Source: Deltaproteobacteria bacterium RIFOXYD12_FULL_55_16 (lineage in GTDB: Bacteria > Desulfobacterota > Desulfobulbia > Desulfobulbales > Desulfurivibrionaceae). Taken from it: a stretch of DNA of 38,641 nt. The stretch is taken from positions 1-38,641 of the forward strand of contig MGTC01000045.1 in assembly GCA_001799255.1 (NCBI GenBank), read 5' to 3'. The position numbers and the translations under genes are program-made. Positions 32,909 through 38,641 of the stretch are shown here, in pieces; position 1 is the stretch's first letter; every line of letters begins with the position of its first letter. The notes under the pieces were generated by a model that did not search any database, had not been told where the DNA came from, and was given only the letters and a program-made list of their open reading frames with translations.

Positions 32909-34987
32909 TCAAGCTGAATAGTTACCGGTCATCTTTGAAAAATCGCCGATCTGCAGAAAGAGCCGGGCGATGGCGGTCAGCAGATTCAGGCGGTTGGCGC
33001 GCACCTGCTCATCCTCCACCATGACCATGACTTCGGTGAAAAAGCTGTCAACCGGTTCCTTCATCTTGAGGATCACGGCCATGGCTTTTTCGTACTCGCT
33101 GGCCTCAAGCAGGGGGGTAGCCTCCAGGTGGGCAGCCAGATAGGCCGCCTGGAGTTTTTGTTCAGCAGCCTCGCTGAATAATGCCGGTTGCACCGAGGTT
33201 TCCTGGTTATCCTTGATGATATTGATTACCCGTTTGAAGGCCCCGGCCAGGATGGCAAAGGCTTCCTGGCTGCTGATGGCCATCAGGGCGTTGATCCGGC
33301 GCTGGCAGTCAAGCGGATCATCGAAAGAGACCGAGGTGACCGCTTCCACTGCCTCGGCGGGGATGCCCTGGCCGGTGAGATCGTTGCTGAAACGGCCCTT
33401 GATGAATTCGAGTACGTTGCGGTGGGCCTCGGCCTGGGGAATGGTAAGCTTGTCGCCATAGAGGGAGAGCGCCTCCTCCACGAACTCGGCCAGCGAGAGG
33501 CTGAAGCCCATGGCCTTGATGATATGGAGCAGCCCCAGCGACAGGCGGCGCAGGCCGAAGGGATCGGTGGTGCCGGTGGGTACCTGGCCGATGCCGAAGC
33601 AGCCGGTGATGGAGTCAAGTCTGTCGGCGATGCCGACCAGCGCCCCAGGGATTGAGGAGGGCAATTGGCCTCCGGCCCTGACTGGCAGGTAATGTTCCCG
33701 GATGGCGGTGGCAACCTCCGGCGTTTCTCCGTTGAGCAGGGCGTAATCCTTGCCGATTGCTCCCTGGAGAGTGGGAAATTCCCCAACCATGTCGGTCAAC
33801 AGGTCAGCCTTGGCCAGGCGGGCGGCCCGTTCGGTCTGGGCCAGGTGTTTAGGGGCAAGCCTTCTGGCCAGCAGCCCGGCCAGGGCGGTAACCCTCCTGG
33901 TCTTGTCAAGCATGGTTCCCAGTTTGTGCTGGAAGATGACGCCCGAGAGGTCTTCGACCCGATCCTCCAGGGAGCGGCGCTGGTCTTCCTTGAAGAAGAA
34001 AAAAGCATCTTCCAGCCGTGCCCGGATTACCCGCTGGTGGCCATCGGCGGCAAGCCTGGCATCCCTGGTGTCCGTGTTGTTCACCGCGATGAAATGGGGC
34101 ATGAGTTTGCCTGCGCCATCAACTACGGCAAAGTATTTCTGGTGTTCCCGCATCGAGGTGATCAATACCTCGCGGGGCAGGGCGAGAAAGCGTTCCTCAA
34201 AGGCGCCGCAAAGGGCAAAAGGTTTTTCCACCAGGTTGCAGACCGTGTCTACCAGTTCGTCATCCGCAAGAATTGTTCCGCCCGCCTGCCGGGCCGCCCT
34301 GGTGATCTCGGCAAGAACCGCAGCGCGGCGTTCCTGGGGGTCTACCATGACCTGGGCTGTGCGCAGGGTGTCGACATAGTCGGTAAAACAGGCGGCGGGA
34401 AAAGGCCCGCTGGCCATGAAACGGTGGCCAAGGGTGGTGTTGCCGCTGGTGATGGCATCCATTGAGAAGGAGACCGTCTTGCCGCCATAGACGGCCAGCA
34501 GCCACTGGATCGGGCGGGCAAAGCTGGCGCGACCTGTCCCCCAGCGCATGGATTTCGGGAAATTGAGGCTGGCGACTACCTCCGGCAGCAGATCGGCCAG
34601 GAGTTCTGTGGTTTGCCGACCAATCTCTTCGACGCGCACCATGAGGTACTCGCCCTTTGGTGTTGCTGCGATCTGCAGGGCCTCAACCGCGATCCCTCTG
34701 GTTTTGGCAAAGCCGATGGCTGCCTGAGTAGGCTGGCCATTCTGGTCAAAAGCCGCTTTTTTGGGGGGGCCGAGAATCTCTTCTTTTCGATCCGGTTGGC
34801 GAGCGGCCAGGCCGCTGACCGAGATGGCAAGCCGCCGTGGGGTAGCGGCGGTGCGCAGACTGGAATAGGGGAGGGCCAGGGCGGTGAGCCGGTCGCCAAG
34901 GATTTTTTCCAGTTGGGAAAGAGCCGGCATGATATAGCCAGCCGGGATTTCTTCGGTGCCGATTTCAAAGAGTAGTTCGTGGCGCAT
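32909..34987 (-). CDS. glyS: Glycyl-tRNA synthetase beta subunit
   Basis: Beta chain of the bacterial alpha2-beta2 enzyme, 692 residues, carrying tRNA recognition and a non-catalytic HD domain. Starts MRHELLFEIGTEEIPAGYI, the family hallmark, with KSMRWGTGRASFARPIQW and the C-terminal anticodon-binding DALRxR-like domain (TEVMVMVEDEQVRANRLNLL). Its partner glyQ, usually immediately upstream, is not next to it: the upstream neighbour is a FolE2-family gene. Its C-terminal GNYSA is encoded by a repeat arm. No strong ribosome site precedes the ATG. Confidence 0.96.
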   Translation of the reverse strand: MRHELLFEIGTEEIPAGYIMPALSQLEKILGDRLTALALPYSSLRTAATPRRLAISVSGLAARQPDRKEEILGPPKKAAFDQNGQPTQAAIGFAKTRGIAVEALQIAATPKGEYLMVRVEEIGRQTTELLADLLPEVVASLNFPKSMRWGTGRASFARPIQWLLAVYGGKTVSFSMDAITSGNTTLGHRFMASGPFPAACFTDYVDTLRTAQVMVDPQERRAAVLAEITRAARQAGGTILADDELVDTVCNLVEKPFALCGAFEERFLALPREVLITSMREHQKYFAVVDGAGKLMPHFIAVNNTDTRDARLAADGHQRVIRARLEDAFFFFKEDQRRSLEDRVEDLSGVIFQHKLGTMLDKTRRVTALAGLLARRLAPKHLAQTERAARLAKADLLTDMVGEFPTLQGAIGKDYALLNGETPEVATAIREHYLPVRAGGQLPSSIPGALVGIADRLDSITGCFGIGQVPTGTTDPFGLRRLSLGLLHIIKAMGFSLSLAEFVEEALSLYGDKLTIPQAEAHRNVLEFIKGRFSNDLTGQGIPAEAVEAVTSVSFDDPLDCQRRINALMAISSQEAFAILAGAFKRVINIIKDNQETSVQPALFSEAAEQKLQAAYLAAHLEATPLLEASEYEKAMAVILKMKEPVDSFFTEVMVMVEDEQVRANRLNLLTAIARLFLQIGDFSKMTGNYSA
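32913..32925 (-). repeat. Third arm of the inverted-repeat element, inside the 3' end of glyS
   Basis: GCTGAATAGTTAC, 13 bases identical to the right arm at 32868-32880, in direct orientation 45 bases further on. It encodes most of the last residues of GlyS (GNYSA). Confidence 0.85.
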
Positions 34988-35036
34988 GGGGGCAGTTTCT
35001 CGCGATATTTTTTAACAGTTGGCTTGAGGGAGAGAC

Positions 35037-35807
35037 TCAGGATACGGGCATCTTGTTGTTGGCCGACCATTCCAGAGAGGCAAAGGTATTGTACCCTTGC
35101 GAAAGATTTTCCACCAGGACGGAAAACCAGGCGATGGCCGGTTGGTTTTCCAGCTTGCGGCCCAGGGCCGTGGTAATGCTTTCCACGGAAAGGGTGTATT
35201 CCGTGGCGCAGGTTTTGCTTGTGGGCCAGCAGAGATCGTGTGAGGTTACCTCTTCCACCAGTTGGATGATATCCTCAATCCAGATGAAATGCCTGAAACG
35301 CAGGCGGATGGTGGCTCGGCCCCAGTGGCCGAGGGAGCGCGGCAGGCCCTGCCCGGTCTGGGAGGGAAGCGGCGGGGAAATGGGCACCTGGATTTCCAGG
35401 GTGAGATCGTCGGTTTTATCCAGTGAGCCATGCATGGTGCAGCGGTATTCATTCATGCCCACCGATTGCGCCTGCCCGGAAGATTTCTTTAAAAAGTAGG
35501 GGAAGGTGATTTCCAGGTGGGCGGCTTCCGCCTGAAGCCGGGCCTTCATCTCCTCGAGAATGCGATGAAAACTTTTCAGGTTTATCTCACCCTGAAACCG
35601 GTTGAGGATCTCCACGAACCGGCTCATGTGGGTGCCCTTGAACTGGTGGGGCAGATTGACGTACATGTTGAAGGTGGCCACAGTTTGCTGGGTCTTTCTG
35701 GCTTTGTCCCGGACTGTTACCGGGTAGGAGATGTTCTTGACCCCGACCTTTTTGATGTTGATCCGGCGGTAATCAGGCTGGCCTTGAATGTCTTTCATGT
35801 CGCTCAT
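35037..35807 (-). CDS. FolE2-family (GTP cyclohydrolase IB-like) protein lacking the conserved metal-site residues
   Basis: 256 residues. Family sequence is clear in the first half: INIKKVGVKNISYPVTVRDK, TVATFNMYVNLPHQFKGTHMSRFVEILN, and VGMNEYRCTMHGSL. The catalytic segment normally CPCSK-EIS-x-YGAHNQR is here PPLPSQTGQGLPRSLGH, aligning without gaps so that both the conserved Cys and the His are replaced. The late His of the HNHNAYA segment is also gone (QGYNTFASLEW). It may be a folate-independent or non-enzymatic paralogue, or bind metal differently through the Cys in DLCWPTSKTC. The canonical reaction, GTP to dihydroneopterin triphosphate, is therefore doubtful. Co-directional with glyS, 49 bases apart. 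Confidence 0.8.
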   Translation of the reverse strand: MSDMKDIQGQPDYRRINIKKVGVKNISYPVTVRDKARKTQQTVATFNMYVNLPHQFKGTHMSRFVEILNRFQGEINLKSFHRILEEMKARLQAEAAHLEITFPYFLKKSSGQAQSVGMNEYRCTMHGSLDKTDDLTLEIQVPISPPLPSQTGQGLPRSLGHWGRATIRLRFRHFIWIEDIIQLVEEVTSHDLCWPTSKTCATEYTLSVESITTALGRKLENQPAIAWFSVLVENLSQGYNTFASLEWSANNKMPVS

Positions 35808-35866
35808 TGGCCCCGGTCGCCCAAGAGTTGCCCGTCTGCCCCTTATTCCCTTGGCGGCCCTGTATT

Positions 35867-36217
35867 TCAGGGCAGATGTTTCTTCACTGCGGCCTTGAGC
35901 TCGTCCAAATTGGATGATTTGACGATGTATTCATCGGAGGCCCAGGTGGACAGATTCTGTTTGAATTCCTGATAGGCGGAGCTTAGAATCACCGGCAGGG
36001 CGGGATTTGTCTCCTTGATCTGGCGCAGGACGTCGATTCCGTTGATGCCGGGCATATTGATGTCGAGGATGATCAGATCCGGCAGAATGACCTTCAATTG
36101 AGCCAGGGCTTCTTCTCCAGAGAGAGCCGAGTGAACCTCGTAGCCTTCGTCTTCCAGTTCTTCGCGGTACAGGAGATGGATGCTGTCTTCGTCGTCAACA
36201 AGCAGTATTTTTTTCAT
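35867..36217 (-). CDS. Single-domain response regulator
   Basis: 116 residues from ATG 36217, chosen for the AGGGGAATCC site; an in-frame upstream start at 36244 has none. Receiver fold: acidic residues at 8-10, phospho-acceptor D52 in LIILDINMPGINGIDVLRQI, switch Ser in VILSSAYQEF and Lys in EYIVKSS. No output domain. No cognate kinase is adjacent. It differs from the CheY at 18247 in pocket and surface residues, so a different circuit is likely. Confidence 0.9.
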   Translation of the reverse strand: MKKILLVDDEDSIHLLYREELEDEGYEVHSALSGEEALAQLKVILPDLIILDINMPGINGIDVLRQIKETNPALPVILSSAYQEFKQNLSTWASDEYIVKSSNLDELKAAVKKHLP

Positions 36218-36263
36218 GGATTCCCCTTGACGGACTTGTAACAATCAAAAAACGTAACGGCAA

Positions 36264-36325
36264 AACGCAGAGACGCGAAGATAAGGCGTTTAACTAAAAG
36301 GGTTAAAACTTTGCGCCTTTGCGTT
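36264..36325. repeat. Imperfect inverted repeat upstream of the response regulator
   Basis: AACGCAGAGACGC at the left and TTTGCGCCTTTGCGTT at the right are partly self-complementary; the latter shares CTTTGCGCCTT with the fliM-fliN hairpin. Confidence 0.45.
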
Positions 36326-36345
36326 AAAAAAACGAGTCGTTATTA

Positions 36346-36542
36346 CACCCCAAGGGTATAAGTTTCGTTTGCACCCTGAAGGGCATAAAATCCGGCGAGC
36401 TGCTCAACTCAGCTTTGCACCCAAAGGGTATAAGTTTCGTTTGCACCCTGAAGGGCATAAAATCCGGCAAGCTGCTCAACTCAGCTTTTCACCCAAAGGG
36501 TATAAGTTTCGTTTGAGCAGGCGAGCTGCTCAACTCAGCTTT
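36346..36542 (-). repeat. Array of three double-hairpin repeats, copies 6-8
   Basis: Units at 36346-36416, 36418-36488 and 36490-36542. The third is the plain 53-base form. The first two are 71 bases because the GAGCAG arm is replaced by CACCCTGAAGGGCATAAAATCCGG, an extra hairpin module. All share CTGCTCAACTCAGCTTT and AAGGGTATAAGTTTCGTTTG. The array lies between galT (stop 36549) and the response regulator, filling the gene-free gap 36218-36548 together with the inverted repeat at 36264-36325. Confidence 0.95.
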
Positions 36543-36548
36543 ATATTT

Positions 36549-37550
36549 CTAAATCGTAGCGTCTCTTAAAAATTGGGCTGCTTCTTCCGGCGGGATGGGG
36601 TTGATGTAAAAACCCGAGCCCCATTCAAAACCGGCAATCGTTGTCAGCTTGGGCATGATCTCAAAATGCCAGTGGAAATGATCCAGGGGTGCTGAGCGCA
36701 AGGGCGCGCCATGCAGCACAAAATTATAGGGAACATTGGGGATGCAGGTGTTCAGGCGGCGCAGGCATTCGGAAAAGATTACGGAGAGCGCCCGGAAATG
36801 GTCGTCATCCATGACAATATATGAAGAGGCATGGCGCTTGGGCAGGATCCACATCTCAAAAGGCGAGCGGGGCGCATAGGGAACAATGGCGATGAACAGG
36901 TCGTTTTCGGCGACTACCCGCTGATTCTGGTTTATTTCCTGCCGGATGATATCGCAGAAGATGCAGCGTTCCTTGTATTTGTAATAGGAGAGGCCCCCTT
37001 CAAGCTCGGAGCTGATCATGCGCGGCACAATGGGCAGGGCAATGAGCTGGGAATGGGAATGTTCCAGCGAGGCTCCGGCTGCGGCGCCGAAATTCTTGAA
37101 AACCATGACGTAACGGAAGCGCTGATCCTGGGCCAGATCAAGCAGGCGATCCCGGTACGCCAGAAAAACCTTGATCATCCGTTCCGGCGGCAGGCTGGTG
37201 AAGGATTCGTGGTGATCCGGGGTCTCGATGATGACCTCATGGGCCCCGATCCCGTTCATCCGGTCATAAAGGCCATTGCCCTCCTTGTTGAGGTTGCCTT
37301 CGATAATCAGGGCCGGGTACTTGTTGGGCACCACCCGCAATTCCCAATCCGGCTTGTTGGCCTGATGCCCGTTGTTGTTGGAGTAACTTAAGACTTCCGG
37401 AGGGGTTGTATTCTCGTTGCCCGGACACAGGGGGCAGAACCCGCCTCTGCCTGCGCTTTTTTCCACAATGAAGTCAGTGGGCCGCTTTCCCCGTTCGGTG
37501 GAGATGATGATCCAGCGGCCAATGATCGGGTCTTTGCGGAGTTCAGGCAT
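36549..37550 (-). CDS. galT: Galactose-1-phosphate uridylyltransferase family protein
   Basis: HIT-superfamily nucleotidyltransferase of 333 residues. Zinc ligands begin at C39-x2-C42; the nucleophile motif is H164-S-H166-S-Q (HSHSQLIALP), where classical GalT has HPHGQ; the second domain ends with HFHWHFEIMPKL. The Ser in place of Pro is also seen in ADP-glucose phosphorylase-type members, so the natural substrate could be ADP- or UDP-sugar. Nine bases after dksA; last gene of dnaJ-moaC-dksA-galT. No galK or galE is nearby. Confidence 0.85.
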   Translation of the reverse strand: MPELRKDPIIGRWIIISTERGKRPTDFIVEKSAGRGGFCPLCPGNENTTPPEVLSYSNNNGHQANKPDWELRVVPNKYPALIIEGNLNKEGNGLYDRMNGIGAHEVIIETPDHHESFTSLPPERMIKVFLAYRDRLLDLAQDQRFRYVMVFKNFGAAAGASLEHSHSQLIALPIVPRMISSELEGGLSYYKYKERCIFCDIIRQEINQNQRVVAENDLFIAIVPYAPRSPFEMWILPKRHASSYIVMDDDHFRALSVIFSECLRRLNTCIPNVPYNFVLHGAPLRSAPLDHFHWHFEIMPKLTTIAGFEWGSGFYINPIPPEEAAQFLRDATI

Positions 37551-37559
37551 GGTGGTCTC

Positions 37560-37925
37560 TTATAAGCCTTTTTGTGCTCTTTCCTGATTTTCCTGGAGGG
37601 TCTTGCATTCGATGCACTGGGTTGTCACCGGCCGCGCTTCAAGACGTTTACTCGAGATCTCTTCGCCGCATTCTTCGCAAATGCCATAGAGACCTTCATC
37701 GATCCGTTCAATGGCTTCTCGGATCTTGATCAGCAGTTTGCGTTCGCGGTCGCGGATGCGAAGCTCGAAGCTTCTGTCTGATTCGGCGCTGGCGCGGTCG
37801 GTGGGGTCGGGATAATTTTCCGTGCTGTCGTTCATTTCGTGGATAGTCTTTTCTGCTTCCTGCAAAAGATCCTGGCTCATGACTTCGAGCTTGTGGCGAA
37901 AGTACTCAAGTTGTTCTCTGTTCAC
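37560..37925 (-). CDS. dksA: DksA/TraR-type zinc-finger transcription regulator
   Basis: 121 residues from GTG 37925, chosen for the AAGGGAG seven bases upstream; a TTG at 37955 has none. Binds the RNA polymerase secondary channel with ppGpp. The coiled-coil tip DPTDRAS (D40, D43, A45) keeps the D-x2-D-x-A motif of active DksA. The zinc finger is C83-x2-C86 and C104-x2-C107. Confidence 0.92.
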   Translation of the reverse strand: MNREQLEYFRHKLEVMSQDLLQEAEKTIHEMNDSTENYPDPTDRASAESDRSFELRIRDRERKLLIKIREAIERIDEGLYGICEECGEEISSKRLEARPVTTQCIECKTLQENQERAQKGL

Positions 37926-37958
37926 GGTCTTACTCCCTTGGTATATCTTGAACAAGCG

Positions 37959-38459
37959 TCATCCGTTTCGTTGATAGCTTCCGCTTTTGCCCCCGGTTTT
38001 CTTCTCCAGCCTGATATTGCTGATGAGCATGCCTTTGTCCACAGCCTTGCACATATCATAAATGGTCAGGGCGGCAACCGAGACGGCGGTGAGCGCTTCC
38101 ATCTCGACCCCGGTCTTGCCGGTTATTCCTACGGTAGCGGTAATTTCTATGGTGTGGGTCGCCTCGTTTAAGGCAAAGTCCACCGTTACCTTGTTGATGG
38201 CCAGAGGATGGGTCAGAGGGATCAGGGTATCGACCTTTTTGGCGGCCATGATCCCGGCGATCCGGGCAACCCCGAGCACATCTCCCTTGGCAATACTTCC
38301 TTCCCGTACCAACTGAAACGCTTGCGCCGACAGGGTAATGGCGCCGGAAGCCGTGGCTTCGCGCCTGGTGTCGCTTTTGCCGCCCACATCCACCATGCGG
38401 GCATTTCCGACTTCGTCAAAATGGGTAAACTGGTTTGCCGTTAAGGGCTGGTCACTCAT
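37959..38459 (-). CDS. moaC: Cyclic pyranopterin monophosphate synthase MoaC
   Basis: Second step of molybdenum cofactor synthesis. 166 residues from ATG 38459 ([18 protein letters not shown]), with AGGA upstream; an upstream in-frame start at 38486 would overlap dnaJ. Signatures are [33 protein letters not shown] and [23 protein letters not shown] with the catalytic Lys-Asp pair nearby. moaA is not in view. Confidence 0.95.
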
Positions 38460-38482
38460 TGTCGTTGTCCTGCTTTCGAGAA

Positions 38483-38641
38483 TCAAGGGTTTTCATCGGT
38501 GAATTTGTGAAAGATTTTTTTAAAAAACCCTTCTTCTTCCAGGTCTGCGCCCCTTTCTTTCTGCAAAGTGTCAAACTCTGTAAGCAGTTCCTTTTCGCGT
38601 GCGGACAGTTTTTTGGGAATGACAACCTTGATCTCAACGCG
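38483..38641 (-). CDS. dnaJ: C-terminal end of chaperone DnaJ (5' part outside window)
   Basis: The minus-strand frame from the window edge reads [20 protein letters not shown], then [18 protein letters not shown] and [14 protein letters not shown] before TGA at 38483-38485, 52 residues. This matches the end of the DnaJ C-terminal domain (V-x-VPKKL-x3-QKELL-x-EF) followed by the SFF-x2-I-x-F tail. The J domain and Cys-rich region are outside. The stop lies 23 bases before the moaC start. Confidence 0.85.

Follow-up and report, generated by a model that had tools for sequence, protein, structure and literature searches.

The FolE2-B locus

The window (the whole stretch of DNA that was analysed, 38,641 nucleotides) encodes a catalytically incomplete paralogue of GTP cyclohydrolase IB (FolE2), referred to here as FolE2-B or B. 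The gene, the segments of its product that are discussed below, and its two immediate neighbors are as follows.

32909 to 34987, minus strand: glyS (glycyl-tRNA synthetase beta; identity by inspection), the conserved downstream neighbor in 75/80 loci
35037 to 35807, minus strand: FolE2-B, catalytically incomplete GTP cyclohydrolase IB paralogue (open reading frame, profile matches, orthologues)
35079 to 35102, minus strand: residues 236 to 243, the site of the lost ESIHxHxA motif (alignment)
35181 to 35183, minus strand: E209, kept, the equivalent of Glu216 of gonococcal FolE2 (99% in B)
35322 to 35369, minus strand: residues 147 to 162, the replaced metal loop, LPSQTGQGLPRSLGHW instead of CPCSxxxSxxGAHNQR (C and H in 0/93 B)
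35610 to 35639, minus strand: half-site 1 in module 1, K57-GTHMSRFVE66, kept (98 to 100% in B; H, M, and R 0 to 3% in A, the partner paralogue introduced below)
35784 to 35792, minus strand: half-site 1, N-terminal D6-x-Q8, kept (D and Q present in 93/93 B and 0/59 A)
35867 to 36244, minus strand: stand-alone receiver-domain (CheY-like) protein, the conserved upstream neighbor (identity by inspection)

The FolE2-B reading frame is unbroken, begins with ATG, and encodes 256 amino acids. Its match to PF02649 (155 bits; E value, 2.8e-45) covers positions 1 to 200 of 260 and exceeds the Pfam cutoff of 25; the protein combines the family match with the bimodular T-fold expected of GTP cyclohydrolase IB (Z score of ∼21 for the model described below). 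Against the NCBIfam FolE2 equivalog, it scores 131 bits and remains below the cutoff of 215, as do three of its orthologues (109 to 120 bits). It also falls short of the MptA equivalog TIGR00294 (51 bits; cutoff, 220).

In the gonococcal enzyme (residue numbers as in 3d2o), Cys147 and Cys149 fall at CPC, His159 at AH, Glu216 at the FVED Glu, and His246 at IH. FolE2-B has each of the two cysteines and the two histidines replaced or deleted and has also lost about 14 residues from its LKRPDEKYVTE segment. Cys147, His159, and His246, which we take to be the metal ligands of FolE2, are kept in none of 93 B sequences. The GTHMSR motif and the N-terminal DxQ of FolE2 are retained, at 98 to 100% in B for these columns. 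Where GAHNQR stood, B carries a conserved motif of its own, PxSxGxWG; the GHWG His is variable (GRWG, GQWG, and GNWG are also found among orthologues). Reading the other two frames of the loop stretch by eye revealed no frameshift hiding CPCSK. Because the same loop replacement recurs in 93 aligned orthologues, it reflects neither chance nor sequencing error.

A structure model of B from 71 sequences (pLDDT, 80.5) replaced a poor model from 19 sequences (pLDDT, 64). Its best fold matches are FolE2 structures (2r5r, 3d2o, 5k95, and 8g6c; Z scores of 20.5 to 21.6, nearly full-length), followed by urate oxidases (Z score of ∼14), and residues 17 to 131 and 134 to 253 each match the single-module dihydroneopterin aldolase. 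B shares with GTP cyclohydrolase IB the fold, DxQ, GTHMSRF, and the base-anchor Glu. In contrast to that enzyme, it has no metal ligands, LKRxDEK, FVED Asp, or IHxH; in ordinary FolE2s of the phylum, a single protein contains both halves.

These results agree with the initial annotation in describing a FolE2 relative that has lost its metal and catalytic residues. The family alignment and the structure model show a retained FolE2 fold with the metal Cys and His absent from 93/93 B sequences; the CPCSK, GAHNQR, and HNHxA motifs are gone, and the CPCSK..HNQR segment aligns with its replacement gap-free, as had been stated. The accompanying suggestion that other cysteines might bind a different cofactor did not hold up, as the sole invariant Cys of B, C123, is not specific to B (it is also conserved in 96% of ordinary FolE2s and 97% of A sequences) and the remaining cysteines vary. 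Besides C123 and a nearly invariant H126, we found no conserved Cys or His in B from which a new metal site could be built.

Within the genus, 16 of 17 genomes encode an orthologue of B with the same losses, and such orthologues extend throughout the family and order. Named isolates that carry B include Desulfopila aestuarii DSM 18488, Desulforhopalus singaporensis DSM 12130, Desulfoprunum benzoelyticum DSM 28570, and Desulfurivibrio sp. AMeS2. Across 71 orthologues, 53 columns are invariant, and in genus-level comparisons the median dN/dS is 0.089 for the whole protein and 0.129 within the dead loop. Loss of catalytic residues is what one would expect of a degenerating pseudogene whose frame is open by chance; the low dN/dS, the invariant columns, and the order-wide presence contradict that explanation and render it exceedingly improbable. 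B is a fixed paralogue across Desulfobulbales under purifying selection rather than a decaying gene, and the earlier view that an intact frame of this kind is no simple pseudogene is upheld.

B lies in a conserved gene run, purA-rpoZ-dnaJ-moaC-dksA-galT-cheY-B-glyS (gene names from sequence inspection). In the window, positions 32909 to 38486 hold moaC, a dksA-like gene, galT, the receiver-domain protein gene, FolE2-B, and glyS. Most of 80 Desulfobulbales loci keep this run and have dnaJ, rpoZ, and frequently purA on its upstream side. These neighbors are mixed housekeeping genes and were uninformative as to the function of B.

A second FolE2 with the opposite losses

The initial annotation had also raised the question of whether the genome holds a canonical folE or folE2. 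One canonical-looking FolE2, designated A and the only one in the genome, is encoded elsewhere (G000:C1:6260-6973), but without the active-site half that B retains. A keeps CPCSREIS, GAHNQR, FVED, and ESIHKHSA; its KGTHMSRF has turned into RESCVSTF, and the N-terminal DxQ is absent. All metal and base-anchor residues are kept in 59/59 A sequences. A is thus a FolE2-family paralogue of B, possibly its sister (∼35% identity), that differs from it as a mirror image: the metal half is kept, and GTHMSR and DxQ are lost. A scores above the FolE2 naming cutoff and B below it.

The A and B genes are unlinked. A Pfam scan of two A loci revealed no consistent neighbors that would link A to a pathway. 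In two genomes, a purH (AICAR formyltransferase/IMP cyclohydrolase) gene or a fragment of one is found close to gene A (L273, 4545 to 5342; L276, 1501 to 2250). The window's genome also encodes a third PF02649 protein, the MptA-like L003 (G000:C19:1243-2034), which scores 126.5 bits against TIGR00294 (cutoff, 220). L003 keeps GIHISR, ACPCT, and SHSQRS, and a distant relative of this type is present in another genome of the order (L242).

We compared the losses in an alignment of 59 A and 93 B sequences together with 54 single FolE2s from elsewhere in the phylum and 3 sequences of one odd genus, using the 71 columns that are each at least 95% conserved in the 54 complete single FolE2s. Nine columns are lost in A (D3, Q5, D31, G55, T56, H57, M58, R60, and E63 in L187 numbering), and mean retention of these in B is 0.998. 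In B, 29 columns are lost, including both Cys, the GAHNQR His, LKRxDEK, the FVED Asp, and IHxH, and their retention in A is 1.00. No column (0/71) is lost in both. The losses divide between T-fold modules 1 and 2 (Fisher P = 6e-8, a descriptive value, as columns of the same motif depend on one another). Median per-sequence retention of half 1 and half 2 is 1.0 and 1.0 in complete FolE2s, 0.11 and 1.0 in A, and 1.0 and 0.03 in B. Separation is complete at the level of single sequences: every A retains ≤33% of half 1, and every B retains ≤14% of half 2.

This pattern bears on two alternatives. First, B may be a regulatory or stabilizing pseudosubunit that binds A, along with GTP or a pterin, through its retained Glu and GTHMSR and modulates A without adding any residue to the site of A, which would work alone without GTHMSR. 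The complete set of metal and base-anchor residues in all A sequences and the anchor Glu in 99% of B are compatible with such a role. It remains unlikely, however, because B has fixed exactly the residues that A has lost, a match that a purely regulatory role does not need, and because no single FolE2 examined in the rest of the phylum does without GTHMSR, even at 47% identity.

Second, B may have taken on an unrelated function (catalysis or ligand sensing, perhaps tied to the adjoining receiver protein or glyS) while the phosphate-binding segment of A changed independently. Both the PxSxGxWG motif that replaces GAHNQR and the conserved operon position of B speak for it. Independent change nevertheless leaves the zero overlap of losses unexplained, along with the joint presence of A and B and their joint absence from a genus with a complete FolE2 (described below), and the neighbors of B are of mixed housekeeping function. 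We consider this explanation quite unlikely. The new function for B that had been entertained from the window is accordingly less apt than a divided enzyme, given that the canonical-looking FolE2 misses the complementary half and that no FolE was found.

Distribution of A and B

The distribution was assessed in 146 genomes of the order, all at least 90% complete except the window's own. B was found in 141, A in 135, and both in 133 (136 when contig-edge fragments are counted). All 14 order genomes of five or fewer contigs contain both. A occurs without B in G058 (92% complete) and G445 (85%), and B without A in G031, G035, G040, G048, G071, and G083; these are drafts, and gaps could explain the missing partner. 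Taken with the 9 and 29 lost columns, none of them shared, the 133/146 genomes with both genes present A and B as co-occurring paralogues with complementary half-site loss, as proposed for a two-subunit enzyme.

Beyond the order, a genome typically encodes one FolE2. Every full-length FolE2 examined there has both halves, including the most divergent at 47% identity to the query, and 54/54 of those aligned are complete. One genus inside the order (G090, G118, and G120) lacks both A and B and encodes one complete FolE2; at the two loci examined, glyS is no longer flanked by cheY-B. The single FolE2s of this genus (L127, L128, and L129) are divergent, on a long branch, and were possibly acquired from elsewhere.

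FolE (type IA, PF01227) was detected in 0/146 order genomes; the control search was positive in 11 of 14 well-known genomes. The cyclohydrolase I candidates found are thus limited to A and B and, in some genomes, an MptA-like protein.

A proposed divided GTP cyclohydrolase IB

From these sequence patterns, we consider it quite probable that A and B depend on each other as subunits of a heteromeric GTP cyclohydrolase IB with composite sites. FolE2 is a bimodular T-fold protein, and T-fold active sites form between modules; in the gonococcal enzyme, a tetramer, the active sites lie at subunit interfaces. An A-B pair would therefore rebuild one complete composite site, with the metal from A and GTHMSR from B. 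We infer that the two proteins associate physically, in a geometry that allows such a site to be active.

In the proposed arrangement, A would supply the module 2 half (CPCSK, GAHNQR, LKRxDEK, FVED, and IHxH), responsible for metal binding, the base anchor, and the chemistry. B would supply the module 1 half (DxQ, D34, and GTHMSR.E), which probably binds the triphosphate of GTP and seals the site. By analogy, GTHMSR, located in module 1 in the loop before the first helix, would complete the metal site in module 2 of another chain; that it faces the metal site of another subunit in FolE2 is argued from related folds. The reciprocal A-B site would be dead in both chains; two sites of an A2B2 tetramer would be functional and yield dihydroneopterin triphosphate for folate.

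Precedents exist among T-fold enzymes. In urate oxidase, the second-best fold match of B and likewise a bimodular T-fold, the ligand sits at the interface of two protomers, and Thr57 and Asn254 come from different chains (PMC7792999); unlike the proposed enzyme, it is a metal-free homotetramer that catalyzes another reaction. In bimodular QueF, the motif lies in one module and the catalytic Cys/Glu in the other, and the modules meet to form one site (PMC5372742). There the split is inside one chain rather than between two genes, and the reaction is again different.

Several observations weigh against a heteromer. The MptA-like third homologue of some genomes, including the window's own, could supply some activity; the two genes are unlinked; A-only and B-only draft genomes exist; and only one genus is known to have lost both A and B while having a complete FolE2. 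On balance, it is likely that the whole order makes the first folate intermediate by an obligate two-gene GTP cyclohydrolase IB whose site is shared by two half-dead paralogues.

If correct, the divided enzyme would offer a clear example from nature of how complementary degeneration turns a homomeric enzyme into an obligate heteromer; relatives still have the single-gene state, to which one genus has apparently returned. Annotation of the Desulfobulbales folate pathway would be misleading, as neither A, which is named as FolE2, nor B, which is not, should work alone. Our search of the open-access literature returned no description of a heteromeric FolE2 or of a FolE2 tied to Desulfobulb*; an earlier description elsewhere is possible. 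To our knowledge, A and B would constitute the first heteromeric enzyme of the GTP cyclohydrolase IB family.

As to origin, a single complete FolE2 in the Desulfobulbales ancestor was probably duplicated, after which the copies would have lost opposite active-site halves. In the tree, A forms one clade and B another. A first quick tree placed B outside all others; constraining A and B together gave a likelihood 44 log units above that of the free quick tree (p-AU, 0.915). The better score of the constrained tree shows that the quick search had performed poorly and is compatible with A and B being sisters, without proving it. One duplication at the base of Desulfobulbales would fit the sequence-based A+B tree, with long branches making support weak. 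In one genome outside the order, a FolE2 gene is present as two adjacent pieces (L222/L225, G424:C1:2417010-2417922), a frameshift or sequencing error.
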